A stretch of 64,000 nt of DNA, taken from positions 558,001 through 622,000 of the forward strand of contig NZ_CAMPOV010000002.1 in assembly GCF_946892675.1 (NCBI RefSeq). Direction: 5' to 3'. Positions 32,332 to 38,165 of this stretch are shown one piece after another. Every line of letters begins with the position of its first letter. Position 1 is the stretch's first letter. The notes under the pieces were generated by a model that saw only the letters and a program-made list of their open reading frames with translations, searched no databases and had not been told where the DNA came from. The position numbers and the translations under genes were made by a program. Source of the stretch: Arthrobacter sp. Marseille-P9274 (GTDB lineage: Bacteria; Actinomycetota; Actinomycetes; Actinomycetales; Micrococcaceae).

Positions 32332-32355
32332 GCCGATAAGGGCGCATATCACAGC
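32332..32355 (+). repeat. dif-like motif, copy 3
   Basis: Left arm GCCGATAA, spacer GGGCGC, right arm ATATCACAGC. First of five copies within 5.9 kb, all in one orientation. Confidence 0.6.
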
Positions 32356-32626
32356 GCTCAGGAAATGGCTTCAAGTCAAACGTCCCTCCAGGGAAGGGCC
32401 ACCGGCACCTGCAGTGGGTATGGCCCGTCTCCTAACGGGGGGCCTGGCGAGTACCCGGGGCTATGGATCGGACGAACCTGGTTGCCATCGGGGAAAGGCC
32501 GATGCCTGGGTCCAAGCAATCCTTGGCTGATACGGATGGACCATGCCTACCGGGCCGGAACCCACCCGTCCCACTCTCCGGAACTACCAGCAAGCCGCAC
32601 CTGACGTGGTTTCCAGCATGCCTGAA

Positions 32627-32650
32627 GCCGATCACGACGGATATGTCGGC
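32627..32650 (+). repeat. dif-like motif, copy 4 (diverged)
   Basis: Left arm GCCGATCA, spacer CGACGG, right arm ATATGTCGGC. The left arm has C for A at position 7, but the right arm is the best inverted match to the left-arm consensus of all copies. It lies just outside the hairpin that ends the HD-domain gene. Confidence 0.5.
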
Positions 32651-32711
32651 GCATACAGATGTATTGAGAGTGGCCTGGCGGATAACGCCGATTGAAGTTG
32701 CTTCTTCCTCC

Positions 32712-32750
32712 CCTGGTCTTATGAGCCAACCTTGGGCTCATAAGACCAGG
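32712..32750. terminator. 16-bp perfect hairpin after the HD gene
   Basis: CCTGGTCTTATGAGCC (32712-32727) and GGCTCATAAGACCAGG (32735-32750) around AACCTTG. Probable terminator of the leftward HD-domain gene. The T run is absent. Confidence 0.6.
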
Positions 32751-32777
32751 TGACTCCGAACGCCGGGCGTCCGGTAT

Positions 32778-33416
32778 CTATTCGGGCCAGTCGGAGTTCT
32801 TGATGACCTCCACGAAGTCGCCGCGCTGGAAGCCCGGGACAAAGTGGGCGAGGACGTCGGCCTTGACGTTTCCGAAAGTGGTCTCCGGGCGGTCCTTGAT
32901 GCCTTCGGTGAACGCGGCGAGGATGCCGTTCTTGAAGTCCGGACGCGGGTGTGCGGCGACCACGGCCTCGCGATCTTCGTCGGAAATGGCGTCGTAGCCA
33001 ATGCCCAGGACATCCAGCTCAACGCCGCGCGTCACCAAGGCGATCTCGGGTGCCATGTGCAGCGGGATCTCGGGGGTGGTGTGCAGGGCGATGCCCGCCC
33101 AAACCAGGTCGGCCCCCTCCCCGGTGATGCCGTGCGAGTGCAGGAACCGGCGTGCCTCGTCGGCAGCATCGATCTCGAAGCGCTGGTCGGTGCGGCGATA
33201 CTTCTCGGTCAGCCCGAGGTCGTGGAACATTGCGCCGACGTAGAGCAGCTCGGGATCGAAGTCCAGGCCCTGCTCGCGGCCGCGCAACGTGCCGAACAGG
33301 AACACCCGGCGGGAGTGGGCGAACACCAGCGGCGTGGCCGCCTCGCGCACCAGCTCGGTCGCCTCCCTGGCCATGGTGTTGTCAGGGATCTGCACGCCTG
33401 CGATGGTTTCAGCCAC
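32778..33416 (-). CDS. HD-domain hydrolase, cyanamide-hydratase-like
   Basis: 212-aa metal-dependent HD protein. The motif is AHSRRVFLFG (first His), MFHDLGL (HD), then HSHGITGEGADLVWAGIALH and PEIPLHMAPE, the arrangement seen in cyanamide hydratase and related HD enzymes acting on nitrile- or isonitrile-like compounds. I start at GTG 33416, which has AAAGGA five bases upstream; a TTG at 33440 would add eight residues. Divergent from a GlxA-type regulator 99 bp away. Together they fill the interval between dif-like copies 4 and 5. Substrate not known. Confidence 0.75.
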   Translation of the reverse strand: MAETIAGVQIPDNTMAREATELVREAATPLVFAHSRRVFLFGTLRGREQGLDFDPELLYVGAMFHDLGLTEKYRRTDQRFEIDAADEARRFLHSHGITGEGADLVWAGIALHTTPEIPLHMAPEIALVTRGVELDVLGIGYDAISDEDREAVVAAHPRPDFKNGILAAFTEGIKDRPETTFGNVKADVLAHFVPGFQRGDFVEVIKNSDWPE

Positions 33417-33515
33417 CTTGTTTCCTTTCGTTGAGGACAACTGCCCCTCCCACTCTCGCCCGCCACGCTACGCTGGTGCCATGTCCATACGGCCACGAAA
33501 ACCACAGATCCAGAC

Positions 33516-35825: not shown

Positions 35826-36239
35826 ATGAAGCTCACCCGAAGCGGGGGCCAGACCGCCAGTGGCCCCGAATCATGGTTCACCGGCACCGTCTTTATCGAT
35901 GGAATACGCAACCCCGACAAGCAATCAGCGGTCGGCTGCGCGCACGTCCGCTTCACGCCGGGCGCCCGCACCGCCTGGCACACCCACCCCAAGGGCCAGA
36001 CCCTGTACGTCACGGACGGCATCGGCTACGTGGCCCGCCGTGGGGGCCAAGTGCAGGAAATCCGGCCCGGCGACGTTATCTACATCGAACCCGGCGAGGA
36101 GCATTGGCACGGTGCCACCGCCGACCGCTTCATGGCCCACGTCGCCATCCAGGAAGCCGACGACCAGGGCCAGGTCGTGACGTGGGGCGAACACGTCACC
36201 GACCACGAGTACGGCCTGCCCACCACAGCGACCAACTGA
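35826..36239 (+). CDS. Cupin-domain protein
   Basis: 137-aa single-domain cupin. Metal motif 1 is [20 protein letters not shown] and motif 2 is [16 protein letters not shown]. Resembles the small cupins near alcohol dehydrogenases and MerR regulators, some with hydroxynitrile-lyase or carbonyl-related activity in the family. ATG 35826 has AGGGAGGAACCGAC upstream. 73 bp after MerR and 22 bp before the dehydrogenase, so co-transcribed. Activity here unknown. Confidence 0.82.
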
Positions 36240-36261
36240 CCACCCTAGAAGGAGACAACCC

Positions 36262-37308
36262 ATGACCACCACCGTAAACGCCTACGCCTCCCCCTCGCCC
36301 GACGGGGCCCTTGTCCCCACGACCATCGAACGCCGCGAAGTCGGTCCCCGCGACGTCCTGATCGAGATCAAGTACGCCGGCATCTGCCACTCCGACATCC
36401 ACACCGTGCGCGGGGACTGGGGGCCGCAGCCGTACCCGCTGGTGCCCGGGCACGAGATCGCGGGCATCGTCACCGAGGTCGGATCCGAGGTGACCACGCA
36501 CGCCGTCGGCGACCGGGTCGGCGTGGGCTGCATGGTCAACTCGTGCGGGGAGTGCAGGAACTGCAAGGCGGGCGACGAGCAGTACTGCCTCAACGGGATG
36601 GTGGGCACCTACGGCGCCACCGACCGCGACGGGACCATCACCCAGGGCGGGTACTCCACCCACGTCGTCGTCACCGAGGACTTCGTGCTCCGGATCCCCG
36701 AGGGCATCGACCTCGACGTCGCCGCTCCCCTTCTTTGCGCCGGTATCACCACCTACTCGCCCCTGCACCGCTGGGGCGCCGGACCCGGCAAGAAGGTCGC
36801 CGTCGTCGGCCTCGGCGGTCTTGGCCACATGGCCGTCAAGATCGCGCACGCGATGGGCGCCGAGGTCACCGTTCTCTCGCAGTCCCTCAAGAAGCGTGAG
36901 GACGGGCTGCGCCTGGGCGCGGACCACTACTACGCGACGAGCGACGAAGCCACGTTCACCGAGCTGGCCGGTTCGTTCGACCTCATCATCAACACGGTCA
37001 GCGCCCCGGTCGACGTCAGCGCCTTCCTGGGACTCGTGACCGTCGGCGGGGCCATGGTCAACGTCGGCGCGCCCGCGGAGCCGCTGCCGGTGAACGCGAT
37101 GGCACTCATCGGCGGCCGCCGCTCGTTCGCCGGTTCCATGATCGGCGGCATCCCCGAAACCCAGCAGATGCTGGACTTCTGCGCCGAGCACGGCATCGGC
37201 GCAGAGATCGAGGTCATCCCCGCCGACAAGATCAACGACGCCTACGAACGCGTCCTCGCCTCGGACGTGCGCTACCGCTTCGTCATCGACACCGCCACCC
37301 TCAGCTAG
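36262..37308 (+). CDS. Zinc-dependent NAD(P) alcohol dehydrogenase, CAD/YahK type
   Basis: 348-aa medium-chain dehydrogenase interconverting alcohols and aldehydes. Catalytic zinc ligands are Cys42 and His64 (GICHSD, GHEIAG), with a Cys from CAGITTY. The structural zinc site is Cys95, 98, 101 and 109 ([15 protein letters not shown]). The cofactor loop is [12 protein letters not shown], and the SQSLKKRED after beta-2 favours NADP(H). The CAD/YahK branch mostly reduces aldehydes. ATG 36262 has AGAAGGAGACAACCC upstream. In the MerR operon this fits aldehyde detoxification. Confidence 0.88.
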
Positions 37309-37402
37309 CGGCGGCCAAACCGGGGCGTGGCGGCTCCTTGCCGCCACGCCCCGCCCTCCGCCGGAACCGAAGCCGCAACGGATCAACACGCGAAGGACCA
37401 CC

Positions 37403-37972
37403 ATGAACCTCGACGATCTCCTACGGGCTCTGAACGCCGGCCAAACCATCACCGGGGACTCGCCCTTGCATCAGGTCATGCATGCCGCCAGCCAGGAGGC
37501 GCTGCGCATCACCGGCGAACTCAATGGCCGGTACCAGGAACCAGTACGGGTGCGGGAGCTGTTGGCCCGGCTCACCGGCAGGCCCGTCGATGAGTCCGTC
37601 ACCGTGTTCCCACCCTTCTACTCCGACTTCGGGAAGAACATCACGCTCGGAAAGCGGATCTTCATCAACTCCGGGTGCAAATTCCAGGACCAGGGAGGTG
37701 TGGTCATCGGGGACGACTGCCTGATCGGGCACAACACAGTGCTGGCCACCCTCAACCACGACCTCGAGCCATCCCGCCGCGCAGACATGCACCCAGCCCC
37801 GATCACCATCGGCCGCAACGTGTGGATCGGGTCGAACGCCACCGTCCTGCCGGGAGTGATCATCGGCGACAACGCCGTCGTCGCGGCAGCATCTGTCGTG
37901 ACGAAAGACGTGCCCGAAAACGCCATCGTCGTGGGCTCGCCGGCCAGGGTGGTGCGCTCGCTAGCCAGCTGA
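37403..37972 (+). CDS. Sugar O-acetyltransferase (maltose/galactoside type)
   Basis: 189-aa left-handed beta-helix acetyltransferase of the Maa/LacA group. An N-terminal helical cap (residues 1-60) precedes hexapeptide repeats such as ITLGKRIFINSGCKF and VVIGDDCLIGHNTVLATLNH. The catalytic His is in NHDLEPSRRADM, then ITIGRNVWIGSNATVLPGV. It is 94 bp after the dehydrogenase with a ribosome-binding-like GAAGGACC. Its link to aldehyde metabolism is unclear; it may simply travel with the module. Confidence 0.85.
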   Translation: MNLDDLLRALNAGQTITGDSPLHQVMHAASQEALRITGELNGRYQEPVRVRELLARLTGRPVDESVTVFPPFYSDFGKNITLGKRIFINSGCKFQDQGGVVIGDDCLIGHNTVLATLNHDLEPSRRADMHPAPITIGRNVWIGSNATVLPGVIIGDNAVVAAASVVTKDVPENAIVVGSPARVVRSLAS

Positions 37973-37978
37973 ACGCGC

Positions 37979-38149
37979 TTTGGCACTCGGTTGCGGCAGG
38001 CGCTCATCTCCGGCAGCGACATCCTTGCAGACGGCGGAGTCACCGCGTCCTGGTTCTACGGGCCACTCAAATCCCGCCCGGTCGGTAACCCTCACGCCGG
38101 CTCACAGAGGGAAGCGTCCAGTCCTCGCCCATCACCCAAATACTGCTAA
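37979..38149 (+). pseudogene. C-terminal fragment of an SDR oxidoreductase
   Basis: The frame reads TRLRQALISGSDILADGGVT then ASWFYGPL, the last strand and tail of SDR proteins (SGSDxLxDGGVTASYFYG). No N-terminal half is present, since the acetyltransferase stop lies just before it. The frame ends in TAA at 38147-38149, which is inside dif-like copy 7. Only about 30 of 250 residues are recognisable. A remnant left at a rearrangement point. Confidence 0.65.
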
Positions 38150-38165
38150 TGGCGCATATGTAGCA
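38142..38165 (+). repeat. dif-like motif, copy 7
   Basis: Left arm ACTGCTAA, spacer TGGCGC, right arm ATATGTAGCA. Last copy, about 180 bp before katG, at the right edge of the modular region. Confidence 0.6.

Follow-up and report, generated by a model that had tools for sequence, protein, structure and literature searches.

Directly repeated sites that resemble dif lie between small gene modules in a 64-kb stretch of Arthrobacter sp. Marseille-P9274 DNA (contig NZ_CAMPOV010000002.1, positions 558,001 to 622,000 of the forward strand; hereafter the window). Comparison of this genome with its relatives gives good support to a reading in which such dif-derived sites bound gene modules in arrays. 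Judging from these sequence comparisons, we consider it likely that the repeats are Xer sites and that the modules are mobile and recombined by the host XerC/XerD, the use of XerC/XerD being the part that we infer. The host genome (G000; 4.78 Mb in 16 contigs) was analyzed together with nine others of the genus (G001 to G009); C numbers denote contigs, and L numbers denote extracted stretches.

A sequence-only reading of this DNA had reported seven copies in the same direction, and we found all seven on the plus strand (Table 1). Against the 21-bp consensus derived below, five copies in the window had at most 3 mismatches and eight had at most 4, compared with means of 0.0 and 0.05 (largest 1), respectively, in 60 Markov sequences. 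The eighth match, at 63905-63925 with 4 mismatches, falls within a predicted 524-amino-acid gene. The shorter pattern of the sequence-only reading gave seven window matches at up to 3 mismatches versus 0.99 by shuffling, and 0 of 100 shuffles reached seven; one of these seven is an unrelated minus-strand match at 26244, and copy 35170 exceeds that mismatch limit. The concern that shuffled sequence might return as many matches was thus answered by copy numbers far above both shuffled and random controls. The part of the array from 32332 to 38142 looks partly decayed (2, 3, 1, 4, and 4 mismatches in order), and a perfect 20-bp copy at C2:553044 indicates that the array begins about 5 kb ahead of the window.

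Anatomy, distribution, and orientation of the sites

A consensus built from the 69 sites of our first set of regions that had no more than 2 mismatches reads aaCRCCGATAA-CGGCGC-ATATGWC. The conserved part extends from about -2 to +21 and comprises an 11-bp left arm (AACGCCGATAA), the 6-bp spacer CGGCGC, and seven right-arm bases (ATATGWC). The proposed arm/6-bp/arm geometry stands, with the correction that the spacer is itself conserved: it was nearly invariant among the 69 sites and unlike that of dif, as expected if central regions must match. Excerpts of two studies describe matching central regions as required for recombination (PMC11705084, PMC13141974).

The likeness of the layout to dif was supported by the dif of the family (GCCGATAA-TCTACA-TTATGTC) and by that of Frankia alni, given in an excerpt of its report as CACGCCGATAA-TGCACA-TTATGTCAAGT, in full CACGCCGATAATGCACATTATGTCAAGT (PMC3025954). 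The dif string GCCGATAATCTACATTATGTC occurs in 8 of the 10 genus genomes, with TCCACA instead in G009 and none among the matches listed for G002; in the host it forms a separate single locus (C1:1496022). The comparison with chromosomal dif that had been suggested found the left arm to be the same and the spacer and the innermost base of the right arm to differ. By homology with dif, the left arm would be XerC-like and the right arm XerD-like. We rejected the possibility that the array sites are the chromosomal dif itself, given 31 host copies with the spacer CGGCGC and a dif at its own locus. Separately, the consensus shows the left arm and spacer of the CGGCGC sites, including that at window position 38142, to make up a short perfect inverted repeat, GCCG-ATAA-CGGC.

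A search of this genome and the Micrococcaceae, also called for by the sequence-only reading, found 31 host copies at up to 3 mismatches on contigs C1, C2, and C3, all 31 on the plus strand, with 0 matches to the reversed pattern. The densest host array lies outside the window, at about 348-402 kb of C3. At up to 2 mismatches, the site was present in 10/10 genus genomes, across which the reversed pattern matched once. A family scan with a degenerate 20-bp pattern (at most 1 mismatch) detected it in 18 of 197 genomes, comprising all 10 genus genomes and 8 of the remaining 187. An exact 18-bp scan of an 84,980-species collection returned 48 stretches, 40 of them from Micrococcaceae (including A. 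crystallopoietes, A. mangrovi, A. mobilis, SF27, VKM Ac-2550, NtRootA1, cf158, Paenarthrobacter, and Zafaria) and 8 from unrelated taxa or phyla, versus about 7.5 chance matches expected over 257 billion bases on two strands. One IMG/VR viral contig (L073:1367-1384) also holds the exact 18-bp site core.

None of the 107 good copies in the host and its relatives (at most 2 mismatches) lay inside called genes, as determined with a simple gene caller, genes trimmed by 10 bp, and a coding fraction of 0.57. The claim that copies lie only between genes holds for these sites and fails for the weak copy at 63905; frequent copies inside genes, which would have spoken against recombination sites, were not observed. 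Among neighboring site pairs within 20 kb, 75/76 were co-oriented, with a median spacing of 3.1 kb for the co-oriented pairs. In 68 of 90 cases, the gene on the left-arm side was directed at the site, and the right-side gene showed no orientation preference (42 versus 48); 17 of the 107 sites had no neighbor on one side.

These features bear on two readings to which we give almost no credence. Direct-repeat sites between modules, with the left-side gene reading toward the site, would suit an integron-type attC array, as would a looser 8-base test against mononucleotide-shuffled flanks (16/103 versus 4). However, only about 24 bp are conserved, inverted left-arm partners within 250 bp were at background (9 found and 8.2 expected for 107 sites), and we found no integron integrase in G000, where both proteins matching PF00589 scored best as Xer equivalogs and integrase models fell far below the cut-off. 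The other reading takes the site as a promoter element with GCCGATAA as its -10, on the strength of these eight letters, which resemble the -10 of WhiG/FliA sigma factors. The same string also occurs in PMC8325347. This promoter reading is equally hard to sustain: no column is conserved upstream of about -4, hence no -35; the right-hand gene faces the direction of the site in only the 42 cases above; and conservation includes the spacer and right arm, with the breakpoints described below left unexplained. A structured RNA was also considered and rejected, as Rfam models gave no match at the gathering threshold over window positions 5000-42000, L012, L013, and L019.

With dnaA and dif located in G001 and G003, polarity was analyzed on the main contigs of both genomes for sites having no more than 2 mismatches. 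Sites on the left chromosome arm were on the plus strand in 15/15 cases and those on the right arm on the minus strand in 3/3, these 18 clustered copies not being independent events; six further G001 sites (contig C3, whose place on the chromosome is unassigned) were excluded from the count. Host C2 fits this polarity, and host C1 fits if its arm is assigned from dif. We also observed a second dif-like set with the spacer CCGTGA, for which 6/6 sites in G000 were on the minus strand, opposite to all 31 CGGCGC sites; a seventh listed match really belongs to the CGGCGC set. In G001 and G003, 3/3 CCGTGA sites were opposite to the CGGCGC set on their arm, and contigs G006 C27, G005 C2, and G005 C26 do not fit this pattern.

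Consistent orientation along each arm is what a polar chromosome-organizing (KOPS-like) motif would show, its copies merely lying at the edges of variable islands. We regard this as very unlikely, in that the copies are few and clustered, homology ends inside the motif, the arms are of dif type, and the set with the other spacer has the reverse polarity. Under recombination at dif-derived sites, direct repeats within one replication arm would make excisable modules, and the inverted orientation between arms would turn inter-arm recombination into inversion rather than loss of the origin or terminus.

Homology ends at sites in different species

To see where homology ends, we took 63 regions totaling 1.41 Mb from the ten genomes and compared them, counting interior ends of blocks of at least 70% identity as coinciding when they lay within 15 bp of a site center in both partners, with the expectation taken from site sets shifted at random within regions. 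Homology ended at sites in both partners in 21 of 485 cases, with 0.006 expected. Five sites at which the shared flank was the end of the second trio element (described below) were dropped before the final count, which was 15/485 with 0.003 expected; at 85% identity it was 12/220 with 0.002 expected. These site-bounded ends between species agree with the proposal that the modules are mobile and with the prediction that their boundaries coincide with copies in other genomes. In the 63 regions, no block of at least 80% identity ran through a site lacking a counterpart in the partner, and three such blocks ran through sites that both partners have.

Complete site-to-site blocks were found between G001 and G003 (18,197 bp, 99.5% identity) and between G002 and G008 (424 bp, 92.2%). 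An internal duplicate in G006 also ran from site to site (494 columns, 88.5%), with its far end bounded by weak sites. The largest block (G001 C1:1486479-1504675 and G003 C1:874810-893006; also L074:6480-19999 plus L075:1-4676) has both ends in sites and unlike DNA directly outside each end, and its 99.5% identity compares with 90.4, 87.9, and 92.7% for collinear stretches of the two genomes nearer dnaA. Its genes above the cut-off are narG, narH, narJ, and narI; two others match below the cut-off, namely, a transporter like those of the NarK family and a protein whose end resembles copper nitrite reductase, and the block also encodes a flavohaemoglobin-like protein and a SulP-type transporter. 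This denitrification block has probably moved between the two species. A plasmid search with 13.5 kb of this block returned 12 records, which matched over the narGH stretch and in no case reached 80% coverage.

The ends of this block also bear on where exchange would have occurred. At the left end, the spacers of G001 and G003 differ at position 10, and the right arm and downstream flank are common to both; at the right end, the two share the upstream flank and, at position 11, an uncommon base, with identity ending at position 20. For this single block, the sequences place the putative exchanges right of position 10 and between positions 11 and 20, that is, in the spacer and right arm. Pooled site variants failed to place the crossover, with right-arm differences in 16/49 comparisons sharing the left flank and 19/112 sharing the right flank. 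Attachment at tRNA genes was considered as well and rejected, with no tRNA genes detected in the window or in L012-L016, L018, and L019.

The 43-kb island of the window and its modules

In G006, katG directly follows a 392-amino-acid gene. In the host, about 43 kb (window positions about -4956 to 38142) separate the homologous gene, with 68% protein identity, from katG, with 94.5% identity, and one site lies near each end of this island. The sequence-only reading had suggested looking for exactly one motif left where a module is absent, which we did not see in G006. In G006, the counterparts of two genes of the module at 35191-38141 (MerR and alcohol dehydrogenase) are located on the opposite side of katG. 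Three genes of this module (MerR, dehydrogenase, and hexapeptide transferase) have counterparts in G002 in another context, where a co-oriented 4-mismatch site follows 23 bp after homology stops, against 0.0 such sites expected in that contig; in the window itself, homology stops 141 bp before reaching the site. A continuous homologue (85%) of window positions 32778-34468 is present in G002 C110, where we found no site. The comparison of the window's own island with an empty locus thus gives partial support only.

Table 1. Positions of sites, modules, and associated elements (window coordinates unless a contig or stretch is named)
Feature	Position	Strand	Remarks
dif-like site	7794..7814	+	1 mismatch to 21-bp consensus
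dif-like site	9654..9674	+	2 mismatches to 21-bp consensus
dif-like site	32332..32352	+	2 mismatches to 21-bp consensus
dif-like site	32627..32647	+	3 mismatches to 21-bp consensus
dif-like site	34554..34574	+	1 mismatch to 21-bp consensus
dif-like site, right arm decayed	35170..35190	+	4 mismatches to 21-bp consensus
Decayed dif-like site	38142..38162	+	4 mismatches; last site of the array, just before katG
Module: HD-domain protein (32778-33416, -) and DJ-1/AraC-type regulator (33516-34526, +)	32648..34553		Pfam
Module: GNAT acetyltransferase open reading frame (34650-35096, -)	34575..35169		Pfam
Module: MerR regulator, cupin, zinc alcohol dehydrogenase, hexapeptide transferase	35191..38141		Pfam; homologues elsewhere in G002 and G006
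Window share of ~43-kb island (C2:553044-596142)	1..38162		Between homologue of G006 pre-katG gene and katG
CCGTGA sites, G000	C3:255088, 277530, 298415, 300212, 326235; C2:700534	-	
First trio element	L145:5519-8807, L146:12170-15435, L147:10739-14028, L148:8584-11840		Each on the left-arm side of its site
Second trio element	L114:10213, L115:9766, L113:10007, L133:9354, L093:8546, L150		Five places, G004 and G008

Candidate recombinases and comparison with known systems

We detected two PF00589 matches each in G000, G003, and G006. For the two G000 proteins, the best equivalog model is XerD in one case, with a score above the cut-off, and XerC in the other. No PF00589 match lies inside the G000 arrays, and no recombinase was found among the module genes scanned, which represent part of the modules. 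Because only two PF00589 proteins are present in each of these three genomes, host XerC/XerD would be the most economical choice of enzyme.

Two trio elements adjoin dif or dif-like sites in other genomes. The first (3.27 kb) encodes a 362-amino-acid tyrosine recombinase, a 101-amino-acid helix-turn-helix protein, and a 492-amino-acid protein without a family match; it adjoins dif and, in three further places, dif-like sites whose spacers are different, with three copies in G001 (>99.6% identical) and one in G009 (94%), and it looks like a dif-site hunter. The second (357, 112, and 504 amino acids) starts 3-5 bp past the right end of the 21-bp CGGCGC site. It is conceivable, and in our judgment unlikely, that the sites are true recombination sites served in trans by the tyrosine recombinase of such a mobile element, with host XerC/XerD uninvolved. 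The position of trio elements directly beside sites in G001 (3 copies), G009, G004, and G008 and the presence of more than two PF00589 matches in most genus genomes would favor this reading. On the other side, G000, G003, and G006 bear arrays with two PF00589 matches only, although a trio element may have resided there in the past, and trio elements adjoin sites and are not their modules.

Several observations weigh against recombination of mobile modules by host XerC/XerD. Further PF00589 matches in 7/10 genus genomes (3 to 9 in all) would allow another enzyme, and the G000 XerC scored slightly below its model cut-off (325.9 of 335.15 bits). Conservation does not reach the outer right arm, with little or no signal in farther columns of the 69 sites, and the right arm starts ATAT (ATATGWC) where dif has TTAT (TTATGTC). 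An excerpted Acinetobacter baumannii study describes the site xrs107, which departs from ATAA-N6-TTAT, as poorly recognized and inactive, and a directly repeated site pair with the same central region as giving no deletion (PMC11705084); given that inactive site, the ATAT start speaks against a simple XerC/XerD case. The 15 coinciding homology ends are partly non-independent, as they include the two ends of a single block and paralogues within a genome, and they come from regions picked around sites. At the window's island, the empty G006 locus between the 392-amino-acid gene and katG holds no motif and is not an exact empty site, and homology to G006 stops about 45 bp before the first and about 90 bp after the last site.

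With these points considered, we still favor dif-derived sites recombined by host XerC/XerD. Because the sites are direct repeats with one common spacer, single modules should be excisable: XerC/XerD would release any one module, or several adjoining ones, in circular form, and the circle would insert at another site with a matching spacer and not at dif, whose spacer is TCTACA. Host XerC/XerD action, circle formation, compatibility within spacer sets, and passage of DNA between cells are the steps that we infer here. More tentatively, as a slightly less than evenly balanced possibility, these arrays may be an integrase-free counterpart of integrons, in which XerC/XerD shuffle cassettes and pathways between species on chromosomes of Actinobacteria. 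The CGGCGC and CCGTGA spacer sets would be separately compatible and of opposite polarity, and site orientation would be kept in step with the replication arms, since wrong orientation would delete the origin or terminus. If so, this would explain how an accessory pathway, such as a nitrate respiration set, can pass from one species to another while encoding no integrase. The polarity of sites along the arms also allows a test of how dozens of recombination sites can be borne by one chromosome.

Among the matches listed in open-access literature, we found no description of dif-module arrays in Actinobacteria. The direct-repeat, shared-spacer layout would be new, and dif-module exchange is already known from Acinetobacter, where module exchange at dif-like sites is documented to spread resistance genes. 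A separate and structurally simpler version, carried by soil Actinobacteria on their chromosomes, would point to the host Xer machinery as a general route of gene-cassette exchange. As far as excerpts of the Acinetobacter reports describe, pdif modules share with the present arrays dif-like bounding sites, the arm/6-bp/arm layout with a spacer unlike that of the main dif, island clusters, accessory genes, and sharing across replicons and species; chromosomal dif sites and clusters exist there too (PMC6449649, PMC12907356). The likeness to pdif modules that had been proposed is therefore sound for site-bounded modules and fails for their arrangement. In Acinetobacter, C and D modules alternate in orientation, the spacers are variable, and single standard modules are considered unable to be excised (PMC13141974, PMC11705084), whereas 75/76 Arthrobacter pairs are direct repeats with one spacer. 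The arrays here also occur in Actinobacteria, and their sites have a left arm better conserved than the right one, which begins with ATAT.

Arthrobacter plasmid XER modules, as described in an excerpt of their report, have in common with our arrays the bacterial group, Xer-type recombinases, and variable cargo, but they carry their own XerD-like, XRE, and XerC-like genes, in contrast to the recombinase-free modules that we scanned (PMC6305408). We rejected identity with an IMEX/XER element for the G000 arrays, which contain no PF00589 match. The IS1202-family dif-site hunters are, like both trio elements, independent elements beside dif or dif-like sites, but the excerpt of their report presents them as insertion sequences with DDE transposases, whereas each trio comprises a tyrosine recombinase, a helix-turn-helix protein, and a protein without a family match (PMC10132070).

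Integron cassette arrays resemble the present arrays in having direct-repeat sites, one to a few genes per unit, and a site 3' of the left gene (68/90 here). They differ in that we found neither an attC-like inverted structure nor an integron integrase in our arrays, where genes occur in both orientations and the site is of dif type.

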